Assembly (NCBI RefSeq): GCF_900110255.1
Contig: NZ_FODD01000003.1
Span: 62,001-126,000 of the forward strand
Source of the DNA: Actinacidiphila rubida
Lineage (GTDB): Bacteria > Actinomycetota > Actinomycetes > Streptomycetales > Streptomycetaceae
Direction of reading: 5' to 3'
Length of the DNA: 64,000 nt
This document shows positions 9,164-62,066 of this stretch, one piece after another (position 1 is the stretch's first letter; every line of letters begins with the position of its first letter). The notes beneath the pieces were generated by a model that saw only the letters and a program-made list of their open reading frames with translations, did no database searches and was not told the DNA's origin. Position numbers and translations under genes: made by a program.

Positions 9164-9174
9164 CGTTCTCCTTC

Positions 9175-9212: not shown

Positions 9213-9254
9213 CGGAAATCGGTCGGCGCCCCGGGAACGGCGGTCCCGAGCGGC

Positions 9255-10487: not shown

Positions 10488-10631
10488 GACCCCCTGCCTA
10501 CCAGGCGGACCCCGAGCGGGCGAACATATTTTCCCCCGTCCCCCGCGTACGGCACGGCGCGGGCACCCGCCGCCGCCGTTTCCGGCTCAGGTCACAGCCG
10601 CCGCGGCCTGCACGGCGGGCCGATCGATGGA

Positions 10632-10637
10632 TAGGGT
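10632..10637 (+). promoter_or_regulatory. -10 element TAGGGT close to the phosphatase start
   Basis: TAGGGT ends 9 nt before ATG 10647, so transcription would start at or within a few bases of the start codon. Confidence 0.5.
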
Positions 10638-10646
10638 CGCCGGGAC

Positions 10647-25286: not shown

Positions 25287-25495
25287 CGCCGTTGCCCGGG
25301 ACATGGTCCTCCGGGCAGCGGGAACGCGACAACCAGGGCTCCCGCGGGAACCCAACACACCGACACGGCGTCACCATTACTGAGGTCCGCTGTGTGTTCT
25401 GATGACAATGGCGTCGGAACCCCGACACCGCGCCCCCACTCGGCGCGACTACGATGGAACCTCCGCCCACGCTCGGGAAGGCCAGACGTATCCAC

Positions 25496-26530: not shown

Positions 26531-26639
26531 CCCTGCGAAACGCCGCGCCGAGGACCTGAAGTACCCCGCACAGTAGTTCCGACCGGCCGCGGCCCCGCAG
26601 CGGCGGCGGGTCCGATACGGAAGGCACGGACTGGCGCCC

Positions 26640-27686: not shown

Positions 27687-27692
27687 CCACCC

Positions 27693-28346: not shown

Positions 28347-28419
28347 CCGGGCGGGTGAGCACGCGGGCGCAGGAGGCCGGCGGCAACGGCACCAGCAGCA
28401 GTAGGAGCAGGGAGCAGTA

Positions 28420-47333: not shown

Positions 47334-47861
47334 TCAGGGACGGGTGACCGGCGCCAGGTCCTGCGGGTGCTGCTGCGGGGCGGCCGGTCCGGCCGCCGTG
47401 CCGTCCGCCGGGCCCGCTTCCGTGTCCTCCGCGACCTGTGCACCCTCCGCGCCCTCTGAGGCGTCCGCATCCTGCCGCGCCCCGCGGGTCAGGATGCGGC
47501 GGGAGAGCACGTAGGTGAACGGGATGGCCGCGGCGGCGGCCACCAGCGGGGCGATCTTGTCGTTCATGTGCGCCCACTCGACGAAGACGTAGACGCCGAC
47601 GCTGGTCACCACGTAGTTCGTGAGGTTGGTCAGCGGGAACAGCAGGAACTTCCGCCAGGTGGGCCGCGTGCGGTACGTGAAGTACGTGTTGAGGAAGAAC
47701 GAGCCGATCATGCTCAGCACGAACGCGGCCGTGTACGCCAGGAAGTACGGCATCAGCGGGTGCAGCGCCAGGTAGAACCCGTAGAACGTGGCGGTGTTGA
47801 CCACACCGACCATGGCGAAGCGCGCTATCTGCAGGACCTGGGGCGAGCGGAGCAGGGTCAA
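47334..47861 (-). CDS. GtrA-like lipid-linked sugar flippase
   Basis: The 175-aa protein has four hydrophobic segments and the GtrA-family pattern 'IARFAMVGVVNTATFYGFY', 'LSMIGSFFLNTYFTYR' and 'NYVVTSVGVYVFVE', then a nonconserved acidic tail. GtrA proteins are thought to flip undecaprenyl-phosphate-linked sugars; Bacillus GtcA is an example. It starts with TTG 47861, preceded by GGAG at 5 nt, and this TTG overlaps the stop of the upstream glycosyltransferase gene by 4 nt (TTGA). The coupling makes a functional pair very likely. Confidence 0.9.
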   Translation of the reverse strand: MTLLRSPQVLQIARFAMVGVVNTATFYGFYLALHPLMPYFLAYTAAFVLSMIGSFFLNTYFTYRTRPTWRKFLLFPLTNLTNYVVTSVGVYVFVEWAHMNDKIAPLVAAAAAIPFTYVLSRRILTRGARQDADASEGAEGAQVAEDTEAGPADGTAAGPAAPQQHPQDLAPVTRP

Positions 47862-48850
47862 CGCATCTCCAGCCGGGACGGCACGACGTGCTCGGGCGCG
47901 GTGGCCTGCACGCCGACCCCGAAGGAACGCGGGGCGTTGGTCTCCTTGACCAGGAAGTGCGGCCGCCGCTTGGTCTCATAGTAGATGCGGCCGATGTACT
48001 CGCCGATCAGCCCCAGCATCAGCATCTGCAGGCCGCCCAGGCCGACGATCGCCACGAGCAGGGTCACGTAACCGGGGGCGTCCGGGCCCTTGATCATCGC
48101 CATCACGGTGACCACGACGGCGTAGGCCGCGGCGATCCCGGCCATGGCCATGCCGAGGTAGATCGCCAGGCGCAGCGGGCGGTTGTTGAACGAGATCAGC
48201 CCGTCCATGCCGTAGTTGACCAGCGCGCCGAAGCGCCACTTGGTCTCGCCGGCCTCGCGCGCCGCGTTGCGGTAGTCGAAGGTGACGGTGTCGAAGCCGA
48301 TCCAGGAGAACAGGCCCTTGGAGAAGCGGTTGTACTCCGGCATCGAGAGCAGCGCGTCCACCGCGCGGCGCGACAGCAGGCGGAAGTCGCCGACGCCGTC
48401 GGTGAGTTCGACGTCCACCCACTTGTTGATCACGCGGTAGTAGAGCCGGCTGACCGCGGTCCGCATGGGCTTGTCGCCCTCGCGGGTGCGGCGGGCGATG
48501 ATCTGGTCGTGGCCGTTGCGGTGCAGCTCCAGCATCGTGCTGATGAGCTCCGGCGGGTGCTGCAGGTCCGCGTCCATGATCACCACGGCGTCGCCGGTGG
48601 TCTCCCGCAGGCCGGCCAGTATCCCGGCCTCCTTGCCGAAGTTGCGGCTGAACGACACGTAGCGGGTGCTCGCCTCGCGGTTCACCGCCAGGGCGCGGAG
48701 CTTGGCCAGGGTGCCGTCCTTGCTGCCGTCGTCGACGTAGCACAGTTCGTAGTCGACACCCAGGTCGTCCAGGGTCTCGCGAATGCGCGCGTCGAAGAGG
48801 TCGACGACCGCTTCTTCGTTGTAGCAGGGAACCACGATGGACAGTCGCAT
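47858..48850 (-). CDS. Polyprenyl-phosphate glycosyltransferase (GT2, DPM1/GtrB/CsbB type)
   Basis: This 330-aa enzyme should transfer a sugar from a nucleotide donor to undecaprenyl phosphate on the inner membrane face. It has the GT2 start 'LSIVVPCYNEEAVV', the DxD motif in 'VVIMDADLQHPPE' (~residue 98), 'DGVGDFRLLSRR', and two C-terminal transmembrane helices ('LAIYLGMAMAGIAAAYAVV', 'LGGLQMLMLGLIGEYIGR') as in GtrB/CsbB. ATG 48850 has GGAAAG about 10 nt upstream; GTG 48859 is too close to it. It is coupled to the GtrA gene and divergent from the GT2 gene at 49138. The sugar is not predictable. Confidence 0.92.
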   Translation of the reverse strand: MRLSIVVPCYNEEAVVDLFDARIRETLDDLGVDYELCYVDDGSKDGTLAKLRALAVNREASTRYVSFSRNFGKEAGILAGLRETTGDAVVIMDADLQHPPELISTMLELHRNGHDQIIARRTREGDKPMRTAVSRLYYRVINKWVDVELTDGVGDFRLLSRRAVDALLSMPEYNRFSKGLFSWIGFDTVTFDYRNAAREAGETKWRFGALVNYGMDGLISFNNRPLRLAIYLGMAMAGIAAAYAVVVTVMAMIKGPDAPGYVTLLVAIVGLGGLQMLMLGLIGEYIGRIYYETKRRPHFLVKETNAPRSFGVGVQATAPEHVVPSRLEMR

Positions 48851-48947
48851 GAAGGTCACTTTCCGCGCAGGTGGCCACGATGGCCGAGAGCTCCGGCGGC
48901 GAGGCTAGGTGGCGCCGGTGAACGCTCCTGGAACCTCGTTTCGTCTA

Positions 48948-48982
48948 GGTGGATAACGTTCGATGGCCGCAAGTTGTCCACT
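48948..48982. promoter_or_regulatory. Two DnaA-box-like 9-mers in a divergent glycosyltransferase intergenic region
   Basis: TTATCCACC (minus strand, 48956-48948) and TTGTCCACT (plus, 48974-48982) each differ by one base from a DnaA-box consensus. CTAGGTGG also occurs twice nearby (48904-48911 and 48945-48952). A near-consensus -10, TATGAT (49091-49096), probably serves the gene at 49138. The rest of this 287-bp gap holds nothing I can name. Confidence 0.35.
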
Positions 48983-49137
48983 GTGACGTACCTCACACCC
49001 GCCGATTTCGGGCACGACGGGGGCATCATGCTGTGGAATGTGCTGTTCCGAGGCCATGACCTGCCGGGATGCCATGGCGCGGACGCCGGATATGATCCGA
49101 AAGGCGGATTCTGGAGCTTCCCGGGAATGAGGTCCGT

Positions 49138-50748
49138 ATGGCTCGCGTCACCGTCGTGGTGATCGTCTACAACGACGCGGACCGGCTGCCGGTCGCGGTG
49201 CGCTCGGTGCTCGGCCAGTCACTGCCGGACGTCGACGTGGTGATCGTGGACGACCACAGCCCGGACCGGAGTCACGAGGTGGCGCAGGAGCTGGCGGCCG
49301 CGCACCCGGGCCGGGTCCGCGCGTTCCGGCTCGACGAGAACAGCGGCAGCGGCGGCGAGCCGCGCAACCGCGGGATCGCCGAGGCCACCGGCGAGTTCGT
49401 GATGTTCCTCGACAGCGACGACGTGCTGGAGCCGGACGCCGCCGAGCTGTTGCTGGCCGCCGCCCGCCGGCACGACGCGGACGTGGCGACCGGCACCTGC
49501 CTGCGGGTGGAGCTGCCCGGGGGCCGCACCAGCGTCTGGGCGCCGCAGTTGTACGACGTCGCGGCCGGCGCGAAACTGCCCGGCACCGTGCTGGACGGCA
49601 TCGGCGGGCACCCGGAGATGCTCTGGGACACCCTGGTGGTCAACAAGCTGTACCGGCGCGACTTCCTGACCCGCACCGGGCTGCGCTTCCCCAGCGGGCT
49701 GCTCTACGAGGACTTCGTGTTCACCGGCCGCCTCTACGCCGCCCGGCCGCGGATGGCGGTGATCGGCGCCCCCGTCTACCGGTGGCACGTGCGCCGGGAC
49801 GCGGCCAGCCTGTCGGTGTCGCTGCACCGCGCGGTGGTGCAGAACTGGCAGGACCGCGTCACCGCCCACGGCATGGTGGTGGACGACCTGGCCGCCGCCG
49901 GACTGGGCCGGCTCGCCGAGGACGCGCAGGCCAAGTTCCTCGACTACGACCTGCCGATGTACCTGCGGGAGCTGCCGCAGCGCAGCGCCTCCTACCGCGC
50001 CGCGTGGTGGCGGATCACCCACGAGCACCTGGCGGGCTTCCCCGCGTCCGCCGTGGCGCGCGCCCGTCCCGTCTCGCGCTGGCTGGCCGCCGCGGTGGGG
50101 CAGCTGCCCGAGGTGCCCGCCGGAACGGACCTGGTGCGCCTGGTCGAGCTGTCCGTGGTGCCGCCGCGCCTGGTGCCGCCCTACCAGGGCGACGCGCAGG
50201 CGCCGGTGTTCGAGGCGGCCGGTGCCTCCGTCCCGCTGGAGGGCCTGCGTGAGCTGCCCGCCGACGGGCTGCCGATCGCCGTCGAGGGGACCGTCACCGT
50301 CGGTTCGACCGTGCGGGTCACCCTGCTGGTCCGCGAGCTGTACGGCCTGCTGGAGGCGCTGGGCCCGCGGCGGGTCCGGCTGGAGGTCACCGAGCGGTCC
50401 GGCCTGCGTCCGCCGGTGACCGCCGAGGGTGAGCTGCGGCAGGTCGCCGGCGGCTGGGCCGCGCACGTGTCCTTCGCCGCACGCGACCTGTCGGCTGCCG
50501 GCCGGCTCACCTCGTGGTCGGTGCGGGCCCGCGTCGAGTACGGCGATGGTCCCGCCACCGAGACCGAGGTACGCGCGGGCGCCGGGCAGCGCACCCGGCG
50601 GGACGCCGTGCTGCTGCGGCCGGGCCGGGTGCTGCTGGTCCAGACGCACGTCACACCCCGCCGGGCGCTGCTGTTCCGCGGCGCCAGCGGCATGGACGGG
50701 GTGCGGCGGGCGGTGGGCTCGGCGCGGCGCCGGCTGCGCACCCGCTGA
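49138..50748 (+). CDS. GT2 glycosyltransferase with C-terminal beta-rich domain
   Basis: The 536-aa protein has an N-terminal GT-A domain: 'VVVIVYNDADRLPVAV', 'VVIVDDHSPDRS' and the DxD-like 'MFLDSDDVLEPDA' (~residue 95), then 'GLLYEDFVFTGR'. The C-terminal ~180 residues are beta-rich without enzymatic motifs, like the accessory domains of wall-teichoic-acid glycosyltransferases. There is no transmembrane helix. Residues 1-330 are paralogous to the N-terminal half of the next gene product. ATG 49138 has GAGG 5-6 nt upstream. The acceptor is probably a polymer made by its neighbours, but this is inference. Confidence 0.88.
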   Translation: MARVTVVVIVYNDADRLPVAVRSVLGQSLPDVDVVIVDDHSPDRSHEVAQELAAAHPGRVRAFRLDENSGSGGEPRNRGIAEATGEFVMFLDSDDVLEPDAAELLLAAARRHDADVATGTCLRVELPGGRTSVWAPQLYDVAAGAKLPGTVLDGIGGHPEMLWDTLVVNKLYRRDFLTRTGLRFPSGLLYEDFVFTGRLYAARPRMAVIGAPVYRWHVRRDAASLSVSLHRAVVQNWQDRVTAHGMVVDDLAAAGLGRLAEDAQAKFLDYDLPMYLRELPQRSASYRAAWWRITHEHLAGFPASAVARARPVSRWLAAAVGQLPEVPAGTDLVRLVELSVVPPRLVPPYQGDAQAPVFEAAGASVPLEGLRELPADGLPIAVEGTVTVGSTVRVTLLVRELYGLLEALGPRRVRLEVTERSGLRPPVTAEGELRQVAGGWAAHVSFAARDLSAAGRLTSWSVRARVEYGDGPATETEVRAGAGQRTRRDAVLLRPGRVLLVQTHVTPRRALLFRGASGMDGVRRAVGSARRRLRTR

Positions 50749-50831
50749 CCGCGCGGGGCTGGACGGATCCCGCTGTCGAACATGGGTCCGACGGGTTGAC
50801 AGTGGGCAAACAGATGGCAACAGGCCTCTTG

Positions 50832-50837
50832 TAGGAT
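50832..50837 (+). promoter_or_regulatory. -10 element TAGGAT of the TagF-fusion gene
   Basis: TAGGAT ends 8 nt before ATG 50846 with no Shine-Dalgarno between them, so the transcript is probably leaderless. Just upstream is a direct repeat, GGCAAACAG / GGCAACAGG (50810-50828), of unknown meaning. Confidence 0.55.
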
Positions 50838-50845
50838 GGCGCGCG

Positions 50846-53719
50846 ATGAGCGAGAACACTGAGCCTGTCGTCAGCGTGGTGGTCATCGTCTACAACGATG
50901 CCGAGCGCCTTCCGACCGCTGTGCAGTCCGTGCTGGACCAGACCCTGCGCAGCGTCGAAGTGGTGATCGTCGACGACCACAGCCCCGACCGCAGCTTCGA
51001 GGTCGCCCAGGAGCTGGCGGCCGCGCACCCCGGGCGGGTGCGCGCCTACCAGCTCCCCGAGAACAGCGGCGCGGGCGGCGAGCCCCGCAACCTGGGCATC
51101 ACCAAGTGCGCCGGTCAGTACGTGATGTTCCTGGACAGTGACGACGTCCTGGAGCTCAACGCCTGCCGCAACATGCTGGAGGCCGCGCAGCGCACCGGCG
51201 CCGACATGGTGTCCGGCCTGTGCGTGCGCACGTTCCTCGACAGCCGCAACGGCAAGATCGACAAGTGGTACGAGTGGCTGTACCGCAGCACCCGCACCCT
51301 GGAGTCGGTCCACGAGCTGCCCGACCTGTTCGTGTTCGACACCCTGTCCACGAACAAGTGCTACCGGCTGGACTTCCTGCGCGAGAACGACCTGCGCTTC
51401 CCCAAGGGCCTGCTCTACGAGGACCTGCTGTTCGCGGCCCGCGCCTACCTGGCCGCGCGGCGCATCACGCTCATCCCCAACGAGGTCTACTACTGGCACG
51501 TCCGGGAGAAGGCCAAGGAGAAGTCGGTCACCAACCGGCGCCACGAGCTCACCAACTTCACCGACCGGATCGAGATCCACCGGCGGATCGACGGGCTGCT
51601 GCGCGAGGGCGGCCACGACGAGCTGCGGCTCGCCAAGGACATCAAGTTCCTCAAGCACGACCTGGTGCTGCACCTGCGCGACCTGCCGTTCCGCGACCAG
51701 GAGTTCCGGCACAACTTCGCCGAGCTCGCCCGCGGCTACATGTCCGGCATGGACGACGCCGCCTACGACGCGCTACTGCCGATCCACCGCATCTGCGCCT
51801 ACCTGCTGATGCAGGAGGACTGGCCGAACCTGATCACCGCGGTCGACACGCTCATCAACCGCAGCAAGGTCTCGTCCACCCTCACCGAGCGCGACGGCCG
51901 CGTGTACTGGTGCGCCGAGCACCTGGACGACCCCCGGGCCCGCGAGATCCTGGACGTCACCGAGCTCGGCTACCACACGCACACCGTCGACGCGATGCTG
52001 CTGCGCAACGCGCTCACGTCGTACGGCCAGGACGCCAAGGGCGTCCGGCTGTCCGGGCGGATCACCAACCCGCTGGGCGTCATCCCGCCCGGCGCGAAGC
52101 TCTCCGCGGAACTGCGGTTCAAGGCCCGCCGCAAGTCGCTGCAGGAGTTCGCCTTCCCGGTGCGCGAGGTCGAGCACCACGGCGACTTCGTCGACTGGTC
52201 CGCGGACGCCGAACTGGCCAGCAGGCTGCGGCCGCTGGGCTTCATCGACGCCGTCTGGGACGTCCGCCTGGTGCTCACGGTGGACGGCAAGAAGACCACC
52301 ACCCGCCTCACCGTCGGCGACACCCCGCTGGAGGGGCACGAGCGGCTGCGGTCGCGTCCGCGGCTCACCCGGCTGATCTCCGACACCCTGGTGCCCGAGA
52401 TCAGCGCCAAGGGCCACCTGGCGTTCCAGCTGGTCGCGGCCGGCGCGGTCAGCCGGCGCAGCCGCAAGGCCATCGACCAGGCGCTGCAGGGCCCGCCCGG
52501 CGCGGTCGCCCGGGCGGGTGTGCGCAAGGCCAAGCAGGTCCGCAAGGACCTCAAGTCCGGCGTGACCAAGATCCGCGCCTACCACGAGGTGCTGCTCAAG
52601 CTGCCGGTCCGCAAGGGCACCGTGGTCTTCGAGAGCCACCTCGGCAAGCAGTACAGCGACAGCCCGCGCGCGATCTACGAGGAGATGCGCCGCCAGGGAC
52701 TGAACTTCACCCCGATCTGGTCCTACGCCGGCAACCCCGAGGGCTTCCCGAAGGACGCCGAGCTGGTCAAGCGCTGGTCCTGGCCGTACCTGCGGGCGCT
52801 GGCGCAGGCCGAGTTCTGGGTGGACAACCAGAGCTACCCGATCAAGCTCGCCAAGCGCCCCGAGACCACCTACATCCAGACCTGGCACGGCTCGGCCCTG
52901 AAGAAGATGGGCTTCGACAGCCCGGAGTTCAGGACCAAGACCAAGGACCAGCAGGCCGCGCAGCAGCAGATCCTCGACCGCTTCGACCACTTCCTGGTCC
53001 GCACCGAGCACGACGTGCGGACCCTGGTCCCGGCGTTCCGGCTGCCCGAGTCCAAGGTCGTGCGCAGCGGTTACCCGCGCAACGACTCGCTGGTCGCGGC
53101 GTGGAAGAAGGAGACCGAGGGCGCCGTCCGCGACCGCGGGCCGCTCGCCGAGGAGCTCGGCATCCCCGCGGACCGCAGGGTGCTGCTCTACGCGCCGACC
53201 TTCCGCAGCACCGCCGACGGCAAGGTGCAGAAGTTCGAACCGCCCTTCGACGTCGAGGAGTTCGCCGACCGGTTCGGCGACCGCTACGTACTGCTGATGC
53301 GCTCGCACTACCTCAACAGCGTGGTGCTGCCGCCGTCCGTGCGCGGCCGGGTCATCGACGTCAGCGGCATGCACGACGTGACGCCGCTGTACCTGATGGC
53401 CGACGCGCTGATCACCGACTACTCGTCGGTGATGTTCGACTACGCGCTGCTCGACCGCCCGATACTGTTCTTCGCCTACGACCTGGACGAGTACGTCAAC
53501 AGCCTTCGCGGCACGTACTTCGACCTGACCAAGCACGCGCCGGGCCCGGTGCTGCAGGAGAAGGACGAGCTGTACGCCGCGCTCGACGACCTCGCCGGCA
53601 CCGACATCGCCTGGGCCGACGCCCGCAAGCGGTTCGTGGCCGAGTACGGGGAGTACGACCGCGGCGACGCCGCCGCCCAGATCGTCGACACGTTCTTCCG
53701 CCGCGGGAGCAAGAAGTGA
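50846..53719 (+). CDS. Bifunctional GT2 glycosyltransferase and TagF-like polyglycerophosphate transferase
   Basis: The 957-aa protein fuses two enzymes. Residues ~1-330 are a GT-A domain ('VVVIVYNDAERLPTAV', 'MFLDSDDVLELNA', 'GLLYEDLLFAAR') closely related to the preceding protein. After a beta-rich linker, residues ~580-955 are a CDP-glycerol:polyglycerophosphate transferase (TagF/TarF family) with 'QTWHGSALKKMGFDS', 'GYPRNDSL', 'VLLYAPTFR' and 'ADALITDYSSVMFDYALL'. The second His of the TagF catalytic pair is likely in 'LLMRSHYLNS'. Such proteins polymerise glycerol- or ribitol-phosphate units and can add sugars, so this is the core of a teichoic-acid-like polymer system. Its stop overlaps the next start by 4 nt (GTGA). 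Confidence 0.93.
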   Translation: MSENTEPVVSVVVIVYNDAERLPTAVQSVLDQTLRSVEVVIVDDHSPDRSFEVAQELAAAHPGRVRAYQLPENSGAGGEPRNLGITKCAGQYVMFLDSDDVLELNACRNMLEAAQRTGADMVSGLCVRTFLDSRNGKIDKWYEWLYRSTRTLESVHELPDLFVFDTLSTNKCYRLDFLRENDLRFPKGLLYEDLLFAARAYLAARRITLIPNEVYYWHVREKAKEKSVTNRRHELTNFTDRIEIHRRIDGLLREGGHDELRLAKDIKFLKHDLVLHLRDLPFRDQEFRHNFAELARGYMSGMDDAAYDALLPIHRICAYLLMQEDWPNLITAVDTLINRSKVSSTLTERDGRVYWCAEHLDDPRAREILDVTELGYHTHTVDAMLLRNALTSYGQDAKGVRLSGRITNPLGVIPPGAKLSAELRFKARRKSLQEFAFPVREVEHHGDFVDWSADAELASRLRPLGFIDAVWDVRLVLTVDGKKTTTRLTVGDTPLEGHERLRSRPRLTRLISDTLVPEISAKGHLAFQLVAAGAVSRRSRKAIDQALQGPPGAVARAGVRKAKQVRKDLKSGVTKIRAYHEVLLKLPVRKGTVVFESHLGKQYSDSPRAIYEEMRRQGLNFTPIWSYAGNPEGFPKDAELVKRWSWPYLRALAQAEFWVDNQSYPIKLAKRPETTYIQTWHGSALKKMGFDSPEFRTKTKDQQAAQQQILDRFDHFLVRTEHDVRTLVPAFRLPESKVVRSGYPRNDSLVAAWKKETEGAVRDRGPLAEELGIPADRRVLLYAPTFRSTADGKVQKFEPPFDVEEFADRFGDRYVLLMRSHYLNSVVLPPSVRGRVIDVSGMHDVTPLYLMADALITDYSSVMFDYALLDRPILFFAYDLDEYVNSLRGTYFDLTKHAPGPVLQEKDELYAALDDLAGTDIAWADARKRFVAEYGEYDRGDAAAQIVDTFFRRGSKK

Positions 53720-54858
53720 ACCGGGACATCTTCATCGTCGGCAACAGCGTGGACGAACTCGGCGGCATCACCACCTGGTCGCACCAGATGGCCAGGCTGT
53801 TCGCCGCCCGCGGCCACCGCGTGCACCTCGTCGGGATCACCCCGTCCACGGTCCGGCACGACATGGCCGACGACCTGCCGTACACCACCACCACGCTGTA
53901 CGACGTGCACCCGCCGCAGGCGTGGAAGCCGCAGACCGTCAAGGACCGGGCCAACCTCAAGGCCCGCCGGGAGCAGCAGCGCCGCCGGCAGGGCATGCAG
54001 GAGCAGGCCGACAAGCTCTCGGCGATGTTCCGTGCCGCGCAGCCCGGCGGCATCGTCATCGTCACCCAGGTCTGGGCGATGGAGTGGGTCAACCTCTCCG
54101 ACACCGCCGGCCTGAAGGTGATCGGCATGAGCCACGAGTCCTTCGAGGCGTGCCGCCAGTCCTCCCGCTTCGCGCGCGTCCAGCGGCACTACAAGGACGT
54201 CGACCGGCTGCTGCCGCTGACGGCCGAGGACGCGGACCTGTGGATCCGGCAGGGCATGAACAACGTCGACTTCATGCCCAACCCGCTGCCGTGGGTGCCC
54301 GAGCGCACCTCGCCGCGCAGCGAGAAGGTCGTCACCACCGTCGCCCGGCTCTCCCAGGAGAAGGGCATCGACATGCTGCTCGACGCCTGGGCCATGGTCG
54401 CGCCCCACCACCCGGGCTGGACGCTGCGGGTCTACGGCGCCGGCGAGGACGAGCAGCTGCTCAAGCAGCAGGCGCACCGGCTCGACATCGACGACACGGT
54501 CGAGTGGATGGGCCGCACCAGCGACGTGCCCGGCGCGCTGTACGGCGCTTCGGTGTTCGCCCAGCCGTCACGCGCCGAGGGCTTCCCGCTGACGCTCCTG
54601 GAGGCGATGGTCACCGGGCTGCCGTGCGTGGCCTTCGACGTCGCCCCCGGCGTCCGGGAGATCATCCAGGACGGGGAGGACGGGCTGCTCGCCCAGCCGG
54701 GCAACATCCAGGCGTTCGCGCGCCAGCTGGGCGTCCTGATGGGCGACCAGCAGCTGCGCGACACGATGGGCGAGCGTGCCGTCGTCAACATTCAGCGGTT
54801 CTCCGCGGACGCCGTCGTCAAGCGCTGGGAAGACCTCTTCACCTTCCTGGAGCTCTGA
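53716..54858 (+). CDS. GT4 family glycosyltransferase
   Basis: The 380-aa GT-B protein has an N-terminal acceptor domain ('IVGNSVDELGGITTWSHQMA') and a C-terminal nucleotide-sugar domain with 'VARLSQEKGIDMLLDAW' and the EX7E motif in 'SRAEGFPLTLLEAM' (~residues 285-298). GTG 53716 overlaps the stop of the TagF-fusion gene (GTGA) and is preceded by GGGAG, so the two proteins are made together. It probably glycosylates the polymer or its linkage unit in the cytoplasm. Its last 67 bases overlap the convergent YfhO gene. Confidence 0.92.
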   Translation: MNRDIFIVGNSVDELGGITTWSHQMARLFAARGHRVHLVGITPSTVRHDMADDLPYTTTTLYDVHPPQAWKPQTVKDRANLKARREQQRRRQGMQEQADKLSAMFRAAQPGGIVIVTQVWAMEWVNLSDTAGLKVIGMSHESFEACRQSSRFARVQRHYKDVDRLLPLTAEDADLWIRQGMNNVDFMPNPLPWVPERTSPRSEKVVTTVARLSQEKGIDMLLDAWAMVAPHHPGWTLRVYGAGEDEQLLKQQAHRLDIDDTVEWMGRTSDVPGALYGASVFAQPSRAEGFPLTLLEAMVTGLPCVAFDVAPGVREIIQDGEDGLLAQPGNIQAFARQLGVLMGDQQLRDTMGERAVVNIQRFSADAVVKRWEDLFTFLEL

Positions 54859-57401
54859 GCCCGCGCCCACACCGGGCGGGCGGCGGCTCCCAGCAGCACC
54901 AGCAGGCCCACCCCGCTGAGCGCCAGGCCCTTGGCCAGGCCCGGCGGGGTGAAGCCGCAGGAGATCCGCGAGGCGCCGGCGCCCAGGGGCACGCCCATCA
55001 GGCCGTCGTAGGACGCCGGCGGGTGCGCGGGCCCGCCGTCCGCCGAGCAGCTCCAGCCGTCCACCGCCGGCGTGGTGATCACCGCGAACCCGCGGCTGCC
55101 GGCCGGCAGGCGAGCGCTCACCTGGTGGCCCCCGACCTGGACCGAGGTGGCCGCGGCGGCCTTCAGCCGGTCGACCGCGGCGGCCAGCCGCGTGGTGCTC
55201 AGGCAGCCCACCGCCTGCCGCGGGATCTCCTGCGGGCCGTGCCGGCCCGCCACCGCGATGTCGAGCCGCCCGCCGGCCGGAGCGGTGCCCAGCAGCATCA
55301 GCGGGCTGCTGGTCATCGGCCGGATGGCGTGCGAGGTCAGCTGCTGTCCCAGGCCCAGCACCCAGCCGCGCAGCCACGGCGTGTACACGTACACCTGGCT
55401 GCCGGGAGTGCACGTGGCCGTGAAGTGCGTCCACGCCTCGCCCGCGCGGGCCTGCGGCACCAGCCACTGCGCCCCGTCCGCGACCGGCGCCGCACCGGGC
55501 CCGGGCCGCAGCTCCGGGACCTGGTAGACCCGGGCGCCCAGCAGCCGCTCCTGGCGGGCGAAGACCGAGTCGCCGCCGGCGGCGGCCGGCAGCGCCGGGC
55601 GGACCGTCACCAGCGGAGCGCCGCCCCCGGTGAGCCGCAGCGCGTCCGTGCGGTCCGGCACGTAGGCGGCGACGCTCATGATCGCCCGGCCCACCGGGTC
55701 GGCCGGGCTCAGCAGGTGGCGGCCCTGGATGTACCAGCCCATGCCCAGCGACTGCAGCAGCCGGGCGGTGCCGGCCGGCACGTAACTGCTGTAGTAGGCG
55801 CCGCCCTCCGCGTCGACGAGCAGCGGGTCGTTGTTGGCGAACCGCTGCCCGCCGGGGTCGATGCGCGCCGCCGGCCAGGCCGACGCGTCCTGGATCCGCC
55901 GGTACTCCGTCCGCGCCTGCGCGTTCATGGTGGCCTTCGGCGTGAACCAGGGGCTCTTGTCACGGATCACCGTGGACGACCACACCGCCTGCGCCGAACC
56001 GAGCAGCACCCCTGCGGCCAGCGCCGCCCCCAGCGCCCGGCGCACCCACGGCGCGTGCCGGCGGCCCCGGACCCGGGTGAGCAGCAGCAGGCAGGCGAGG
56101 AAGAACGAGCCGCCGACGAGGGTCGCGGGCCACGTCTGGCCCTGCACCGCGGCCCGCCCGTGGACCAGCAGCACCAGCACCGCCAGCAGCCCGGCGCCGG
56201 ACAGCAGCGCCTGCGGCCCCGGCCGGGCCGCCAGACACACCCAGGCGGCCATCACCAGCACCCCGCTGAGCACGTACGCGGCCCGGTACGGGCTGCCGTT
56301 GGGGATCGCCAGGCCGTGCCACAGCAGCACGGTCGGCTGCCACACGAACGACAGGGCCACCAGCACCGCCAGCAGGTACCAGCCGGCGCGTTCCCGCCGC
56401 GCCACGGCACGCTGGAACGGCAGCGTGGCGACCAGCAGCAGCACCAGCATGCCCGCGGCGATGTTCGGCGCGCTGAACGGCGCCCGTCCGGCGGGCAGCA
56501 GCTGGGCCAGGTAGTCCAGCGGGCCGAACGCCCGGTGGTAGGGCTGGGCCGGCGCGGGCTGCGCCGCCCGGCTGGCGGCCAGGCTCACCGTCAGCACGGG
56601 CGCGGCCAGCAGGACACCGGTGGCCGTCATCGCGGCCGCCCGCAGCAGCACCCGGGCCGCGGCGCGCGGCGGGGCCGCCGCGACCGCCAGCCGCAGCAGC
56701 AGGACCAGGGCGGCCGCGAGGGTGGCCATCGCGCCGGTGTAGAAGTTGCCCGCCCACACCACGGCCACCAGCAGCGTGCCGAGCACGAAGTGCCGCCCGC
56801 GCAGGCACCAGTCCGCGGCGATCACCAGCAGCGGCAGCCCGGCCAGGCCCCACATCCACATCGGGTCGGGCGACGCGTCGTTGACCACCCAGGCGCACAG
56901 CGCGTACCCGACCGACAGCAGCGCCCGCAGCCACGGCGAGCCCGGGCGCAGGCAGCGCAGTGCCGCGGTCATGGCGGCGGCGGCCAGCCCCGCGCTCAGC
57001 AGCGTCACCAGGAACACCGGGAAGTCCACCATGGACCGCGGGAACAGGCCGGTCAGCCAGGAGAACGGGTTGCACAGGTAGGCGAAGAAGTCCGGCAGGA
57101 AGGGCGTGCCGAACCCGCTGTTCCAGTTGAAGAACAGGTCGCCGGAACCGGTGCCGTGCTGCAGGTCCCACAGGTGCGCGTGGAACGGCACGAACTGGTT
57201 GCCCAGGTCGTTGACCGCCCGCGACCGCGGCCCGAACGGGTACATCCCGTGCAGCGCCATGGCCAGGCAGTACGCCGCCATCGTGAGGACGGCCGAGCCG
57301 AGCGCCGCCGAGGACTCCGAGGTGCGCACCGGCCGCAGCCTTATCCCCGGCGTCCGCAGTGCCGGAGCCGGGACGAGGCGGGTGAGAGGTGCGGCGGTCA
57401 T
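54792..57401 (-). CDS. YfhO-family GT-C membrane glycosyltransferase
   Basis: The 869-aa protein has about twelve or more hydrophobic segments up to residue ~500, then a ~330-residue extracellular domain and a last transmembrane helix near the C terminus ('LALSGVGLLVLLGAAA'). The first loop, 'RSRAVNDLGNQFVPFHAHL', carries the acidic residue expected of GT-C enzymes, and 'FNWNSGFGTPFLPDFFAYL' is typical of YfhO proteins. In Bacillus, YfhO transfers a sugar from undecaprenyl phosphate to lipoteichoic acid after CsbB and GtcA action. ATG 57401 follows GGAAGGA and lies one base after the PIG-L gene stop, so the two are coupled. Confidence 0.9.
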   Translation of the reverse strand: MTAAPLTRLVPAPALRTPGIRLRPVRTSESSAALGSAVLTMAAYCLAMALHGMYPFGPRSRAVNDLGNQFVPFHAHLWDLQHGTGSGDLFFNWNSGFGTPFLPDFFAYLCNPFSWLTGLFPRSMVDFPVFLVTLLSAGLAAAAMTAALRCLRPGSPWLRALLSVGYALCAWVVNDASPDPMWMWGLAGLPLLVIAADWCLRGRHFVLGTLLVAVVWAGNFYTGAMATLAAALVLLLRLAVAAAPPRAAARVLLRAAAMTATGVLLAAPVLTVSLAASRAAQPAPAQPYHRAFGPLDYLAQLLPAGRAPFSAPNIAAGMLVLLLVATLPFQRAVARRERAGWYLLAVLVALSFVWQPTVLLWHGLAIPNGSPYRAAYVLSGVLVMAAWVCLAARPGPQALLSGAGLLAVLVLLVHGRAAVQGQTWPATLVGGSFFLACLLLLTRVRGRRHAPWVRRALGAALAAGVLLGSAQAVWSSTVIRDKSPWFTPKATMNAQARTEYRRIQDASAWPAARIDPGGQRFANNDPLLVDAEGGAYYSSYVPAGTARLLQSLGMGWYIQGRHLLSPADPVGRAIMSVAAYVPDRTDALRLTGGGAPLVTVRPALPAAAGGDSVFARQERLLGARVYQVPELRPGPGAAPVADGAQWLVPQARAGEAWTHFTATCTPGSQVYVYTPWLRGWVLGLGQQLTSHAIRPMTSSPLMLLGTAPAGGRLDIAVAGRHGPQEIPRQAVGCLSTTRLAAAVDRLKAAAATSVQVGGHQVSARLPAGSRGFAVITTPAVDGWSCSADGGPAHPPASYDGLMGVPLGAGASRISCGFTPPGLAKGLALSGVGLLVLLGAAARPVWARAQSSRKVKRSSQRLTTASAENR

Positions 57402-57402
57402 G

Positions 57403-59676
57403 CTAGGCGGTCCTTCCGGTGGTGGTCGGGCGAGGGGTGACGGCGGCCCCGGCGATCGCGGTGGCGGCACGGGCGGTGGGCACGGCCTGCGTCCAGCGGA
57501 CCTCGGCCGCGTCCACCGTGCCGTCGTAGCGGGTCGACCACAGCGCGCCGTCCGCGCCGACGGCCAGCGCCACCAGCCGGCCCTGGGCGTCCTGGACGAG
57601 CGCGGGGGAGTGCACGTGCAGTGCTGAGCCGCGCGACCACTGCTCGGGCGCGGGGTGGGAGGCGGCGACCGAGACGCACCCGGCGGCGTTGCGGACCGCC
57701 ACGGCCACGTCGGGCAACGCCGCCTGGACCGGGCCGGAGTGGGCCATCGCCACCCGCCCGAAGCCGCCGCCCGGCTCGCCGCGGCCCAGTGGCACCACGG
57801 TCCTGCCGGACGCGGTCAGCTCGGCGAGCACGACCTGTGCCGTGCGCGGCTCCCGGTAGGCCAGCCGCACCGACCCGTCGGGCATCGCCAGCGCGCTGAC
57901 CGGGCCCGAGGAGCCGGGCAGGCCCGTCGGCCGGGCCAGGGCGAACGGGCGCCCGCGCCCGGGCGACGTCCAGTGCAGGACCGCGCGCTGCGCGGGGGCG
58001 AACACGTGCACCCGGCCGGCCCGGTCCACCGCGACGCCCAGCCCGTCGAGCACCCGCACGCCGGACTCGGCGGCGTTCGGCAGCCGCGTCCAGGGCGACC
58101 ACGCGCCGCGGGCCGACTGCACGCGCACGCTGACGCCGCCGCCCTGGTTGCGCACCGCCAGGTAGACCGTGCCGTCGGGGCCGGCGGCCGCCTCGGGGAA
58201 GCCCATCTCCATGGACGCCACCGGGTTCGCCTCGCTGGTCCCCAGGCTGCTCCAGGGCGAGAACAGCGGCCTGCCGTCCGCGGCGGTGCCGCGCTGCACG
58301 GCGGTCACCACCTCGCGGCGGTGCACGCCGGTGCCGCGGGTGTCGGGCAGCCGGGTCCTGACCGAGAACAGCTGCAGCGCGCCGTCCCTGCGGGAGAGCA
58401 CCGAGACCTGGCCCTCCAGGCCGCCGCCGGGCAGCGCCACCGGCCCGGCCCACTGCCCGGTGCCGCCCTTCGTCTCGTACCAGACCACCGCGCGGCCGCT
58501 GAGCAGCGCGAACCCGGCGAGCCTGCCGTCGGCGGCGCGGGCCGCCCAGGACGCGGCGCCCGGAGCGCGGTAGCGGGTGCTCTGCACCCAGCCGCCGTGC
58601 AACGCCCCGCCGCCCACCTTCAGGTCCCCGCAGCCGGACGGGTCGCCGCAGGAGAGGTGATCGCTCCAGCCGTAGACGTCCAGCAGGCGCGCCTTGTGCC
58701 GGATGGCGGGGGTGTCGAGGTTCCACGGCAGGCGCGCGTTGACGTACCCCAGGTAGTGCTCGACCGAGGTGCCCGGCACCGGCTGCGTCGCCCAGTGGGC
58801 GGCCAGCGCCTGCTGGACGAAGTACGTGGCGTGCGTGTGGTCCTGGTGGTCGTAGTAGGCGAGGCCGTGGCCGGGCGCGTAGCCCCGGCGGCCGGTGTGC
58901 ACCGGGTCGTGCTCGGGGTTGGGGTCCAGGGTGCGGACCACGTCGGGACGGTACTGGTGCAGTATCGCCTGCAGGCACGCCACCAGCCGGCCGCGTGTGA
59001 CGTTCGTCGGGTTGCGTATCGGCGAGTGCGCGGGCGGCAGTTGGGGCAGCGACAGGACCGCGTTCTGCCACAGGCCCTTGAGGCTCTGCGCCCGCCACGC
59101 GGCCACCCCGCGCGCCTCCACCAGTGCCAGGAACAGCAGTTGGACCCGCGGCACCGCGCGCAGCGTGTGCAGCTCGGCCTCCCAGCCGCCGACCGGGGTG
59201 ACGAGGGTCACGTCCCACGGGCTCGACTCCTCGCCGGTGGCCATGACCGCGTGCGCCCGCCGCAGCCCGTTCATCCGGGCGCGGGCGAAGCCGGGGCGGT
59301 CGGGCCGCACCAGCCGGCCCCGCGGATCGTGCGGGGGGACGTTGCGCCCGTCCGCCTCGCCGCCGGTCAGACACACCGTCAGCACCGCGTGCCCGGCGGC
59401 GATCTCCTGCTCCGCGTCCGGGTTCATGAAGTACAGGCCGTCGTCCGGGTGGGCGACGAACTGCACCACGGTGAGCGCGCGGTGGGCGGTGCCCACCGGC
59501 AACTGGATGCCCTGGCCGGGCGCCGTCGCCGTCGGCCCGTCCGCGTCCCGCGGTCCCCCGCCCCCGCTCCACCGGTAGAGGGCCGCCATGGCGGCCCCCG
59601 ATATCCCGGCGGCTCCTGCGGCGAGAACCCCCCGCCTGGCGATCCTTGCGGACCGCCTCCCGTGCCGCGACGCCAT
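57403..59676 (-). CDS. Secreted PIG-L family deacetylase with C-terminal propeller-like domain
   Basis: The 757-aa protein starts with a probable Tat signal ('SARIARRGVLAAGAAG', residues ~9-24). Residues ~55-340 form a PIG-L deacetylase: the zinc motif 'AHPDD' (~76-80) and the distal histidines in 'YYDHQDHTHAT'. The rest (~370-745) consists of repeated blades with the pattern W-x-L then 'DGxxxVF/AxR', like PLL/tectonin-type lectin propellers. PIG-L enzymes remove acetyl groups from N-acetylglucosamine-containing molecules; exported forms could modify wall polymers. ATG 59676 has GGAGGT at 8 nt. The stop lies one base before the YfhO start. Confidence 0.88.
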   Translation of the reverse strand: MASRHGRRSARIARRGVLAAGAAGISGAAMAALYRWSGGGGPRDADGPTATAPGQGIQLPVGTAHRALTVVQFVAHPDDGLYFMNPDAEQEIAAGHAVLTVCLTGGEADGRNVPPHDPRGRLVRPDRPGFARARMNGLRRAHAVMATGEESSPWDVTLVTPVGGWEAELHTLRAVPRVQLLFLALVEARGVAAWRAQSLKGLWQNAVLSLPQLPPAHSPIRNPTNVTRGRLVACLQAILHQYRPDVVRTLDPNPEHDPVHTGRRGYAPGHGLAYYDHQDHTHATYFVQQALAAHWATQPVPGTSVEHYLGYVNARLPWNLDTPAIRHKARLLDVYGWSDHLSCGDPSGCGDLKVGGGALHGGWVQSTRYRAPGAASWAARAADGRLAGFALLSGRAVVWYETKGGTGQWAGPVALPGGGLEGQVSVLSRRDGALQLFSVRTRLPDTRGTGVHRREVVTAVQRGTAADGRPLFSPWSSLGTSEANPVASMEMGFPEAAAGPDGTVYLAVRNQGGGVSVRVQSARGAWSPWTRLPNAAESGVRVLDGLGVAVDRAGRVHVFAPAQRAVLHWTSPGRGRPFALARPTGLPGSSGPVSALAMPDGSVRLAYREPRTAQVVLAELTASGRTVVPLGRGEPGGGFGRVAMAHSGPVQAALPDVAVAVRNAAGCVSVAASHPAPEQWSRGSALHVHSPALVQDAQGRLVALAVGADGALWSTRYDGTVDAAEVRWTQAVPTARAATAIAGAAVTPRPTTTGRTA

Positions 59677-59893
59677 GCTGCCGACCTCCGGTAAGGCACA
59701 TCCATCCCCTTCACGACATGTGCCGCCATCGGCGCCCGCTGATCGACTTAGGGGATGTCTCCCGTTCACTGACGACTTCCGACCTGTTTGACGGACATTC
59801 ACTCGGACGCGTTGTCCGCCGCAGGGTCATGGTTCGGTAACGACCGTCGACGGGGTCACGGCATCACCGGGAGGGGGCCTCCCGGGCGGCGGA

Positions 59894-59899
59894 TAGACT
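59894..59899 (+). promoter_or_regulatory. -10 element TAGACT of leaderless galE
   Basis: TAGACT ends 6 nt before ATG 59906 and no ribosome-binding site is present between them. The 229-bp divergent region shared with the PIG-L gene contains no gene. Confidence 0.6.
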
Positions 59900-59905
59900 G
59901 ACCGA

Positions 59906-60877
59906 ATGACCTGGATGATCACCGGCGGTGCCGGCTACATCGGCTCCCACGTCGTGAAGGCCCTCGTCGAGGGCGGACACCGGGTCGTCGTGTTCGACGA
60001 CCTGAGCACCGGCGACCCCGGGCGGCTGCCCGACGGGGTGCCGCTGGAGCGGGGCACCGTGCTCGACCGCGACGCCCTGGACCGGGTGCTGCGCGAGTAC
60101 GCCGTCGAGGGCGTCGTGCACATCGCGGCGAAGAAGCAGGTCGGCGAGTCCGTCGAACGTCCCCTCTGGTACTACCGCGAGAACGTCGAGGGCCTGCGCA
60201 CGGTCCTGGAGGCCGCCGCGGACGCCGGGGTGCGCCGCTTCCTGTTCTCGTCCTCGGCCGCCGTGTACGGCATGCCGGACGTGGACCTGGTCACCGAGCA
60301 GACTCCGTGCGAGCCGATGAGCCCGTACGGCGAGACCAAGCTCGCCGGCGAGTGGCTGGTCGGCGCCACCGGCCGGGCCCACGGCATGGCCACCGCGTGC
60401 CTGCGCTACTTCAACGTGGCGGGCGCGGCGAGCCCGGAACTGGGCGACCCGGGTGTGTTCAACCTCATCCCGATGGTCTTCGACCGCATCACCCAGGGGA
60501 AGGCGCCGCTCGTCTTCGGCACCGACTACGCCACGCCCGACGGCACCTGCATCCGCGACTACATCCACGTCGAGGACGTCGCCGCCGCCCACGTCGCGGC
60601 CGCGCGCCGCCTCACCGACGACCCGGCGGCCGGTCTGGTGCTCAACATCGGCAGCGGCGAGGGCGTCTCGGTGGCCGAGATGGTGGCGCTGATCGCCGAG
60701 GTTTCCGGCCACACTGATCTCGAACCCGAGGTGGCGCCGCGCCGCCCCGGCGACCCGGCCCGGGTCGTCGCCTCGGCCGAGGCGATCACCAAGGAACTGG
60801 ACTGGACCGCGCAGCACGACGTGCGGTCCATGGTGACCTCGGCCTGGGCAGGCTGGCAGCTGCGGCACCCGGAGTAG
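59906..60877 (+). CDS. galE: UDP-glucose 4-epimerase
   Basis: GalE interconverts UDP-glucose and UDP-galactose (or the N-acetyl forms). The 323-aa SDR enzyme has the NAD motif 'TGGAGYIGSHVV', the catalytic Ser in 'FSSSAAVYG' (~residue 117) and YxxxK in 'SPYGETKLAGE' (~residue 142). The C-terminal 'CIRDYIHVEDVAAAH' is the epimerase signature. It sits beside the glycopolymer genes, divergent from PIG-L, and may supply a galactose-type donor. An 8-bp hairpin (60885-60892 / 60897-60904) follows the stop. Confidence 0.94.
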   Translation: MTWMITGGAGYIGSHVVKALVEGGHRVVVFDDLSTGDPGRLPDGVPLERGTVLDRDALDRVLREYAVEGVVHIAAKKQVGESVERPLWYYRENVEGLRTVLEAAADAGVRRFLFSSSAAVYGMPDVDLVTEQTPCEPMSPYGETKLAGEWLVGATGRAHGMATACLRYFNVAGAASPELGDPGVFNLIPMVFDRITQGKAPLVFGTDYATPDGTCIRDYIHVEDVAAAHVAAARRLTDDPAAGLVLNIGSGEGVSVAEMVALIAEVSGHTDLEPEVAPRRPGDPARVVASAEAITKELDWTAQHDVRSMVTSAWAGWQLRHPE

Positions 60878-60904: not shown

Positions 60905-60932
60905 GGTGGACGGCGACACGAGGACGGCGCAG

Positions 60933-62066
60933 GTGACACGGGCGGCACGGCAGGACGTGGCGGAGGCCCGCAGGATCGTGGTGAAGGTCGGCTCGTCGTC
61001 GCTGACGACGGCGGCCGGCGGGCTCGACGCGGACCGGGTGGACGCCCTGGTCGACGTGCTGGCCAAGGCGCGCGAGGGCCGCGAGATCGTGCTGGTGTCC
61101 TCCGGCGCGATCGCGGCCGGCCTCGCACCGCTGGGCCTGGAGCGCAGACCGCGCGACCTGGCCCGGCAGCAGGCCGCCGCAAGCGTCGGCCAGGGCCTGC
61201 TGGTCGCGCGCTACACCGCCTCCTTCGCCCGCTACGGCCTGCGCGTCGGGCAGGTGCTGCTCACCTCCGACGACGTCAGCCGCCGCACCCACTACCGCAA
61301 CGCGTTCCGCACCCTGGAGCAGTTGCTGACCATGGGCGCCGTGCCCGTGGTCAACGAGAACGACACGGTCGCCACCGACGAGATCCGCTTCGGCGACAAC
61401 GACCGGCTCGCCGCGCTCGTCGCCCACCTGGTGCGCGCCGACCTGCTGGTGCTCCTCTCCGACGTCGACGGCCTCTACGACGGCGACCCCCGCACCCCGG
61501 GCACGAGCCGGATCGAAGAGGTCACCGGGCCCAAGGACCTGGAGGGCGTCTCGATCGGCAGCGCCGGGCGGGCCGGCGTCGGCACCGGCGGCATGGTCAC
61601 CAAGGTCGACGCCGCCGGCATCGCCACCGGCGCCGGGGTGCCCGTCGTCCTCACCTCCACGGTGCACGCCGCCGACGCCCTGGCCGGCCGGCCCACCGGA
61701 ACGTACTTCCACCGCACCGGCAAGCGGTCCGCGGGACGCCTGCTGTGGCTCGCGCACGCGTCCGCGCCGCGGGGCGCCCTGCGGCTGGACGAGGGCGCGG
61801 TCCGCGCGGTCACCGAGCGCGGCAGCTCGCTGCTGCCGGCCGGACTGACCGCCGTGGAGGGCGAGTTCACCGCCGGCGACCCCGTTGACCTGCTCGACGA
61901 GGCCGGTCGTGCCGTCGCCCGCGGCCTGGTCAACTTCGATGCGCGGGAACTGCCGCGGCTGCTCGGGCGCTCCACCCGGGACCTGGCCAGGGACCTCGGT
62001 CCCGCCTACGAGCGGGAGGTCGTCCACCGCGACGACCTGGTGCTGCTGCGACCAGCGGGGCGCTGA
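60933..62066 (+). CDS. proB: Glutamate 5-kinase
   Basis: ProB phosphorylates glutamate, the first step of proline synthesis. The 377-aa protein has the amino-acid kinase fold ('RIVVKVGSSSLTT', 'VLVSSGAIAAG', 'VVNENDTVATDEIRFGDND', 'GTGGMVTKVDAA') and a C-terminal PUA domain (~285-375). I chose GTG 60933 because GAGGA lies exactly 8 nt upstream. GTG 60906, 9 codons earlier, directly follows the galE hairpin and has poorer signals but cannot be excluded. proA follows after one small gene, the usual streptomycete order. Confidence 0.95.
   Translation: MTRAARQDVAEARRIVVKVGSSSLTTAAGGLDADRVDALVDVLAKAREGREIVLVSSGAIAAGLAPLGLERRPRDLARQQAAASVGQGLLVARYTASFARYGLRVGQVLLTSDDVSRRTHYRNAFRTLEQLLTMGAVPVVNENDTVATDEIRFGDNDRLAALVAHLVRADLLVLLSDVDGLYDGDPRTPGTSRIEEVTGPKDLEGVSIGSAGRAGVGTGGMVTKVDAAGIATGAGVPVVLTSTVHAADALAGRPTGTYFHRTGKRSAGRLLWLAHASAPRGALRLDEGAVRAVTERGSSLLPAGLTAVEGEFTAGDPVDLLDEAGRAVARGLVNFDARELPRLLGRSTRDLARDLGPAYEREVVHRDDLVLLRPAGR

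Follow-up and report, generated by a model that had tools for sequence, protein, structure and literature searches.

CsbB, GtcA and YfhO of Bacillus subtilis are reported to place N-acetylglucosamine (GlcNAc) on lipoteichoic acid (LTA) (PMC5836110; PMC8035078), and systems of this type are described for the LTA of B. subtilis and S. aureus and for the wall teichoic acid (WTA) of L. monocytogenes (PMC8035078). The locus described here shares with them a polyprenyl-phosphate glycosyltransferase of the GT2 family, a GtrA-type flippase and a YfhO GT-C glycosyltransferase, and differs in its linked secreted de-N-acetylase, its gtrA beside gtrB, its actinobacterial host and its interposed polymer genes. 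Among NCBIfam models, gtrB and YfhO come closest to those of the streptococcal Pgf system (PgfS, PgfM1, PgfM2), the acceptors of which are proteins and in which no PIG-L is known to take part, yet both fall below the cut-offs (PgfS 388 of 500 bits, PgfM2 122 of 1500 bits). Galactosamine decoration of arabinogalactan in Mycobacterium and Corynebacterium likewise involves a polyprenyl-phosphate GT2 enzyme (PpgS), a further glycosyltransferase (GT-C) and a free amino sugar as reported product, but the transferase family and the acceptor are different, and the main text of that paper never uses the word deacetylase (PMC9671496).

Among streptomycetes, the LTA and WTA of Streptomyces hygroscopicus are reported to be very similar, both being polyglycerolphosphate that bears alpha-GlcN and alpha-GlcNAc in a ratio of 3.7 to 1 but no D-alanine, and Actinobacteria are said by the same authors to lack dlt (PMC3196553). 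This 2011 report of free-amine glucosamine on a Streptomyces teichoic acid concerns another species than A. rubida, and its available text names no enzyme for the substituent and assigns no decoration genes (PMC3196553). The S. coelicolor wall-polymer genes SCO2589-SCO2590 include a TagF-type gene (PMC3937824), as does our locus, and the gene for PdtA (SCO2578) adjoins a nicotinate-nucleotide adenylyltransferase gene (PMC7831098), the same order being found downstream of the window. GtrB, GtrA, YfhO and PIG-L are not mentioned in the available portions of these two accounts (PMC3937824, PMC7831098).

Gene content of the obgE-proB locus

The window is the whole stretch of DNA analysed, 64,000 nucleotides of an Actinacidiphila rubida contig. 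Between obgE and proB it carries gtrA-gtrB, a GT2 gene, a TagF-type polymerase gene, a GT4 gene, YfhO, a secreted PIG-L deacetylase and galE (Table 1).

Table 1. Genes between obgE and proB, with positions in the window and family matches
Gene or product	Position	Strand	Family match
gtrA: GtrA/GtcA-type small membrane protein, putative flippase	47334..47861	-	PF04138 79 bits, cut-off 26.1
gtrB: GtrB/CsbB-type polyprenyl-phosphate glycosyltransferase, two C-terminal membrane helices	47858..48859	-	PF00535 103 bits
GT2 glycosyltransferase, additional C-terminal part	49138..50748	+	PF00535 106 bits
GT2 + Glyphos_transf protein (TagF-type polymerase), 957 aa	50846..53719	+	PF04464 325.5 bits
GT4 glycosyltransferase	53716..54858	+	PF00534 133 bits
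YfhO family GT-C glycosyltransferase; C-terminal part resembling carbohydrate-binding modules	54792..57401	-	
Secreted PIG-L (LmbE-like) de-N-acetylase + PLL-type lectin propeller	57403..59676	-	PF02585 40 bits, cut-off 28.2
galE: UDP-glucose 4-epimerase	59906..60877	+	TIGR01179 323 bits, cut-off 262.3

By homology, the predicted components of a CsbB/GtcA/YfhO-type system are all encoded here: a GT2 enzyme with C-terminal helices, a GtrA-type flippase and a YfhO-family GT-C protein. The gtrA and gtrB genes overlap by 4 bases. GtrB matches the solved structure 5ekp (GtrB, sll0501) at 260 bits. This best solved relative is a glucose-type enzyme, so that GlcNAc as the sugar handled by GtrB is not secured by the sequence. 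A hydropathy scan predicts two helices in GtrB, only one (the scan being crude) in GtrA and ten in YfhO, and fold comparison with a model of YfhO supports the GT-C fold.

The PIG-L protein is a predicted de-N-acetylase with intact active-site residues. H47, D49, D50 and the DHxDH motif, which we take to be the metal-binding and catalytic His/Asp residues of PIG-L, are invariant in the 51 sequences aligned. Fold comparison with its model points to a lectin propeller, and the lists of fold matches are filled by this propeller, not by the catalytic domain.

Linkage of pigL, yfhO, gtrB and gtrA across genomes

The genes pigL, yfhO, gtrB and gtrA form a conserved linked set. They lie in this order on one strand at 11 loci (L163-L173), one in each of 11 genomes that belong to three other genera, while in the window the set is split, with the polymer genes in between. 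At all 11 loci gtrA follows gtrB, and in 10 of them the closest gtrA start is the one with the 4-base overlap. At 10 of the loci no more than 152 bases separate the PIG-L stop from a YfhO start; the distance is 548 bases in L173, where the PIG-L match is broken across frames. The yfhO-gtrB gap could be determined at the loci other than L163, L168, L169 and L170. The YfhO tree was drawn without L168, the YfhO frame of which was cut in the analysis.

PIG-L proteins near YfhO form the subgroup most like that of the window. The 16 of 70 PIG-L places most similar to that of the window (at most 8 candidates per genome being scored) all have YfhO no more than 1 kb away and come from 14 genomes with five genus labels, and none of the remaining 54 is within 3 kb of YfhO; this was first counted with 62 of the 78 YfhO places, and a repeat with all 78 gave the same result. 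A stop is flagged in 7 of these best 16 alignments, and in G115 the gene is a whole 688-aa frame, a length also given for a listed database relative, the alignment overrunning its end. The best 120 database relatives of YfhO and the best 120 of PIG-L have 20 contigs apparently in common, including that of the window and some as small as 6, 16, 17 and 18 kb.

The gtrB gene behaves similarly, with YfhO within 3 kb of 25 of the 49 gtrB places, and the genomes with the closest gtrB matches beyond the genus (80-81%; G067, G077, G037, G074, G115 and G117) carry the four-gene run. Where gtrB lies at the TagF locus, YfhO is present somewhere in 28/28 genomes, versus 14/22 where it does not; these are raw counts that ignore kinship and cover 28 of 32 TagF loci with gtrB and 22 of 48 without, and at least one of the 22 (L017, genome G004) has gtrB 13 kb away. 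PIG-L is not obligatory for YfhO, since A. rubida itself has a second YfhO-gtrB-gtrA set elsewhere in its genome without PIG-L, and YfhO occurs in 61 of 121 genomes versus only 14 with a close PIG-L.

In the other genera, none of the 11 four-gene loci (~20 kb each) gave a match to TagF, GT4 or galE, and the run is therefore a unit of its own. The flanking proteins scanned at L163 are a protease and enzymes of the leucine, isoleucine and serine pathways; together with the missing TagF, GT4 and galE they indicate that the acceptor need not be a TagF product. The sequence-only reading had placed an extracellular glycosylation set of GtrB, GtrA and YfhO next to a TagF-type polymerase, and this gene set is indeed present. 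The comparison of related genomes that it proposed, to see whether these genes, PIG-L and TagF keep company, bears it out in part: YfhO, GtrB, GtrA and PIG-L are truly linked, but the association of YfhO and PIG-L with TagF is occasional. Of the 80 TagF loci, a number of which are truncated by contig ends, 4 have YfhO and 5 have PIG-L close by, the figures within the obgE-proB frame being 1/32 and 3/32 TagF loci, respectively. Beside TagF the entire set also occurs in L015 and L028, and in L174, which belongs to another genus.

The TagF-type polymerase and its cluster

TagF, GT4 and galE make up the usual obgE-proB cluster, as at 32/32 loci with an obgE-TagF-proB frame; galE is present in 32/32 of these, and GT4 in 79/80 TagF loci. 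The set comprises the best 80 of 141 loci, obtained with search patterns that catch close TagF relatives only, and many of the loci are cut by contig ends. The TagF-type protein matches solved TagF (3l7i) at 260 bits, far above TarL (92) and Cps3D (93), and it keeps both histidines that are substituted in the 3l7j and 3l7m chains. A Glyphos_transf domain with both catalytic histidines places it, as a prediction, in the TagF-like polymerase family; the NCBIfam TarF cut-off is not reached (NF041712, 256.8 of 550 bits). The alignment with solved TagF spans the GT2 and the Glyphos_transf parts, and many annotated relatives with this layout are among the best 120 listed, so that the GT2-TagF fusion named by the sequence-only reading is an ordinary arrangement and no special feature.

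The same reading had viewed the cluster as a self-contained pathway, and this we discard. In the cluster Pfam detects neither TagO nor TagA, nor any gene for export or ligation, and the genome yields no TagD match to TIGR01518 at E <= 1e-3, a search in which 12 of 14 controls were detected, 2 of them over the cut-off. A CDP-glycerol donor via TagD was thus not found in the genome, which leaves glycerol phosphate unsecured as the polymer unit. In the genus, 25/35 genomes give weak TIGR01518 matches, none of the 35 having one over the cut-off; genomes without TagF are among the 25, so these matches say little about TagD. A LytR-CpsA-Psr (LCP) protein is encoded ~4 kb beyond the end of the window (G000:C31:129975-131822), adjoining a CTP_transf_like (nadD-like) gene; the order is CTP_transf_like followed by LytR_cpsA_psr and LytR_C (L099:3135-5822), nadD being called by Pfam family and order only. 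An LCP gene adjoining a nadD-like gene near wall-polymer genes is the arrangement described for PdtA.

A proposed decoration pathway and alternative readings

We see about an even chance that the locus is two joined units, the obgE-proB wall-glycopolymer cluster ordinary in Streptomycetaceae and a four-component extracellular decoration module. The basis in hand is the gene content, the model-based folds, the intact active-site residues and the conserved pigL/yfhO/gtrB/gtrA linkage. The GT2 enzyme, the TagF-type polymerase, GT4 and GalE would build a phosphodiester polymer inside the cell. GtrB would load an N-acetylhexosamine, most likely GlcNAc, onto polyprenyl phosphate, GtrA would flip the lipid-linked sugar across the membrane, and YfhO would transfer it to the polymer outside the cell, the acceptor most likely being a TagF-made glycerol-phosphate teichoic acid. 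PIG-L, presumably Tat-exported and attached to the wall glycan through its lectin propeller, would then take off the acetyl group, so that the anionic polymer comes to carry a cationic hexosamine. A CsbB/GtcA/YfhO-type system with a fourth, de-N-acetylating component is our preferred description, the linkage being observed and the sugar, acceptor and order of steps proposed.

The order of steps could be reversed, PIG-L deacetylating the lipid-linked sugar at the outer face so that YfhO transfers hexosamine and not N-acetylhexosamine. A deacetylase step precedes ArnT-type transfer, and pigL adjoins yfhO at 11/11 four-gene loci, with the close spacing noted above; nevertheless the lectin propeller fits binding of a finished glycan, and YfhO-gtrB-gtrA sets without PIG-L mean that YfhO cannot always require a deacetylated donor, which makes this order quite unlikely in our view. 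PIG-L might instead be a bystander at the locus, secreted for deacetylation in general, with peptidoglycan, chitin or foreign glycans as substrates, as 54 of 70 PIG-L places not within 3 kb of YfhO would allow; we assign this a similarly low probability, the subgroup most like that of the window adjoining YfhO in 16/16 places across five genus labels. Very improbable, too, is glycosylation of secreted or surface proteins in the manner of streptococcal Pgf, with TagF adjacency accidental. PgfS and PgfM2 are the best NCBIfam models, the adjoining galE is reminiscent of PgfE, and the 11 four-gene loci lack polymer genes of the kind in the window; however, both Pgf scores are below their cut-offs, and galE belongs with the TagF cluster and not with the four-gene run. 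The YfhO enzymes tabulated in PMC8035078 also act on teichoic acids.

A further reading is restricted to the polymer and could in part coexist with the decoration module: the cluster would make poly(diglycosyl 1-phosphate), the minor Gal/GlcNAc phosphodiester polymer of S. coelicolor attached by PdtA, with the TagF-like domain acting as a sugar-1-phosphate transferase. The genome has no TagD match, galE lies within the cluster, the downstream LCP gene adjoins a nadD-like gene as described for PdtA (PMC7831098), and capsule polymerases of GT-A/TagF-like type are reported to make poly(oligosaccharide phosphate) (PMC5974469). Against this, solved TagF scores far above TarL and Cps3D, and GT-A/TagF-like polymerases are described as going with beta linkages (PMC5974469), whereas the S. 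coelicolor polymer has alpha-Gal, which GT4 would have to add. We consider this polymer somewhat unlikely.

Returning to the decoration module acting on a glycerol-phosphate chain, wall-polymer charge influences autolysis, the binding of ions and how well cells resist cationic peptides, and Firmicutes adjust it by D-alanine. We tentatively suggest, as a possibility that falls short of even chances, that Streptomycetaceae replace the absent dlt charge control by D-alanine with the four-gene system, placing GlcNAc outside the cell on a glycerol-phosphate chain and converting it to cationic glucosamine by the linked PIG-L with its lectin anchor. If so, we know of no earlier gene set for glucosamine-substituted teichoic acid. 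In the literature searched, no paper mentions PIG-L together with teichoic acid. The module could account for the glucosamine on S. hygroscopicus teichoic acid, a glucosamine-substituted polyglycerolphosphate such as it would make (PMC3196553); TagF, YfhO and PIG-L relatives from S. decoyicus are among the matches listed (best 120). The conserved pigL-yfhO-gtrB-gtrA run offers candidate genes for teichoic acid glucosamine, and it hints that a dedicated tailoring enzyme can accompany three-component glycosylation in Gram-positive bacteria.

Organization of the obgE-proB interval

The cluster lies between obgE and proB in a genome of 9.0 Mb, and the overlaps and spacing of its genes resolve it into three compact units. 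gtrB and gtrA overlap by four bases, as do the TagF-type gene and GT4, and the likely start of yfhO falls one base after the pigL stop, giving the units gtrB-gtrA, GT2-TagF-GT4 and pigL-yfhO.

Genes of the cluster and its borders, called from codon-position GC and Pfam
Gene	Position in window	Strand	Basis	Remark
obgE	45806-47248			left border
gtrA, gtrB	obgE-proB interval	minus	codon-position GC, Pfam	
GT2, TagF-type GT2/Glyphos_transf protein, GT4	obgE-proB interval	plus	codon-position GC, Pfam	
YfhO, PIG-L	obgE-proB interval	minus	codon-position GC, Pfam	
galE	obgE-proB interval	plus	codon-position GC, Pfam	
proB	60906-62066			right border

The GT4 and YfhO genes are convergent, their 3' ends overlapping by 67 bases (54792-54858), and the overlap is repeated in the matches of two other extracted loci, L015 and L016. 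Upstream of the cluster, about 14 kb before obgE (25454-31850), are mreB, mreC, a penicillin-binding protein gene and a RodA-type gene; PMC7831098 cites a paper whose title ties the mre gene cluster of S. coelicolor to the synthesis of the spore wall. Past the downstream end of the window there is a nadD-like gene followed by a LytR-CpsA-Psr gene, matching the nadD-type and LytR-CpsA-Psr gene order reported for the S. coelicolor PdtA region (PMC7831098).

The TagF-type polymer unit

The polymer unit is ordinary. Its closest named TagF relatives are in Streptomyces (Actinacidiphila) acidipaludis (92%), an actinomycete MAG (92%) and A. bryophytorum (83%). Among 80 named loci compared around TagF relatives, many of them cut by contig ends, GT4 is present in 79, galE in 49, gtrB in 32, gtrA in 30, PIG-L in five and YfhO in four. 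TagF is inside an obgE-proB frame in 32 of the 80, and all 32 contain GT4 and galE, with gtrB plus gtrA in 26, PIG-L in three and YfhO in one.

Alignment of the solved TagF to the window protein gives 33 bits for the GT2 part and 225 bits for the polymerase part, and the scores against Cps3D (93 bits) and TarL (92 bits) are much weaker than that against TagF. The window protein retains the two histidines for which other TagF entries have substitutions. TagD has no match anywhere in the window's genome, and TIGR01518 exceeds its cut-off in none of 35 genus genomes (weaker matches in 25), despite Glyphos_transf genes in 30 of them (up to five matches); the polymer may thus be either a glycerol phosphate or a sugar phosphate. 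That 30 of the 35 genomes, the window's own included, have TagF-type genes though none has TagD over cut-off bears on the supply of CDP-glycerol, if this is the donor.

A conserved decoration unit and its linked PIG-L

The decoration genes form a conserved set. Across the genus sample (35 genomes including the window's own; GtrB relatives counted at E <= 1e-60), YfhO is present in 25 and GtrB in 24, with both in 23, YfhO alone in two, GtrB alone in one and neither in nine (Fisher p 7e-6, uncorrected for kinship). In the family (121 genomes, again with the window's own; GtrB at E <= 1e-100) 39 genomes have both, 22 YfhO alone, 4 GtrB alone and 56 neither (p 9e-12, likewise uncorrected), and YfhO is within 3 kb at 25 of 49 gtrB places. 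We also searched 50 named TagF genomes, chosen from the 32 loci with gtrB and the 48 without; YfhO occurs somewhere in all 28 genomes with gtrB at the TagF locus and in 14 of the 22 without.

In a midpoint-rooted tree, 57 YfhO proteins (that of L168 dropped) split into two halves with support of 1.0 each. One contains the window YfhO, its near relatives and those of ten of 11 loci (L163-L173, from three other genera) in which pigL-yfhO-gtrB-gtrA run in this order on a single strand; in this half, the YfhO of L124 alone has no gtrB nearby. YfhO genes of the other half mostly lack a nearby gtrB, the exceptions being L117 (the same gene as L181), L177, L178, L179 and L180. The window's genome has four YfhO genes, one of them in a second tight and complete YfhO-gtrB-gtrA set on contig C47 (L097, G000:C47:44000-63000, at 7589-11779) without PIG-L or TagF; identity to the window genes is 72% for its gtrB and about 50% for its YfhO.

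PIG-L belongs to the decoration set. Searching the 121 family genomes with the window's PIG-L (up to eight candidates scored per genome) gave 70 places in 51 genomes. The best 16 of these, in 14 genomes with five genus labels, all have a YfhO match 116 to 852 bases away, and none of the remaining 54 has one within 3 kb. The contigs of the best 120 YfhO and best 120 PIG-L relatives have 20 lengths in common, that of the window's own contig among them. In ten of the 11 four-gene loci the nearest YfhO start is at most 152 bases from the PIG-L stop, in ten the nearest gtrA start gives a 4-base overlap with gtrB, and all 11 PIG-L proteins have a Tat-like pattern.

The four-gene run is a separate unit, which in the window is split around TagF. 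None of the 11 loci has TagF, GT4 or galE matches, and the run is found amid other genes, flanked in L163 by genes of the leucine, isoleucine and serine pathways and one for a protease, and in L166 by genes for leucine and isoleucine to one side and by another GT-C-like gene and an acyltransferase gene to the other. This independence from TagF loci counts against the TagF product as the sole possible acceptor. L174 holds together TagF, GT4, GT2, two YfhO, two PIG-L, gtrB, gtrA and galE, and L175 has the same content minus PIG-L, the closest being 13 kb from YfhO. In L171 and L172 two adjacent PIG-L genes have a YfhO gene to each side, the two YfhO genes being on opposite strands, which makes a doubled run, and the GT-C-like protein (PMT_2) and acyltransferase of L166 (13537-16427, downstream of the run) are possible extra wall tailoring genes.

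Predicted pathway and product

The glycosylation system itself is of a known kind, and CsbB, GtcA and YfhO provide the homology basis for its first three steps (PMC8035078, PMC5836110 and PMC7389260). In the literature searched, which was largely open-access, no account of the linked deacetylase came up ('PIG-L' never appeared together with 'teichoic'), and none of the papers listed seemed, judging by the listing, to deal with a Streptomyces YfhO system.

The identity of the sugar and of its acceptor, and the sequence of the steps, are inferred. By homology, GtrB would load a sugar onto polyprenyl phosphate, GtrA would flip the charged polyprenyl phosphate, and YfhO would move the sugar to an acceptor outside the cell, where the linked PIG-L, probably Tat-exported, would take off the N-acetyl group. 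PMC3196553 describes the lipoteichoic acid of S. hygroscopicus as a polyglycerolphosphate with alpha-GlcN and alpha-GlcNAc at 3.7 to 1 and no D-alanine, with a closely similar wall teichoic acid; Actinobacteria, according to its authors, lack dlt and clear LtaS orthologues. Such a GlcN-bearing polymer is the product that would be expected from the GtrB-GtrA-YfhO-PIG-L set.
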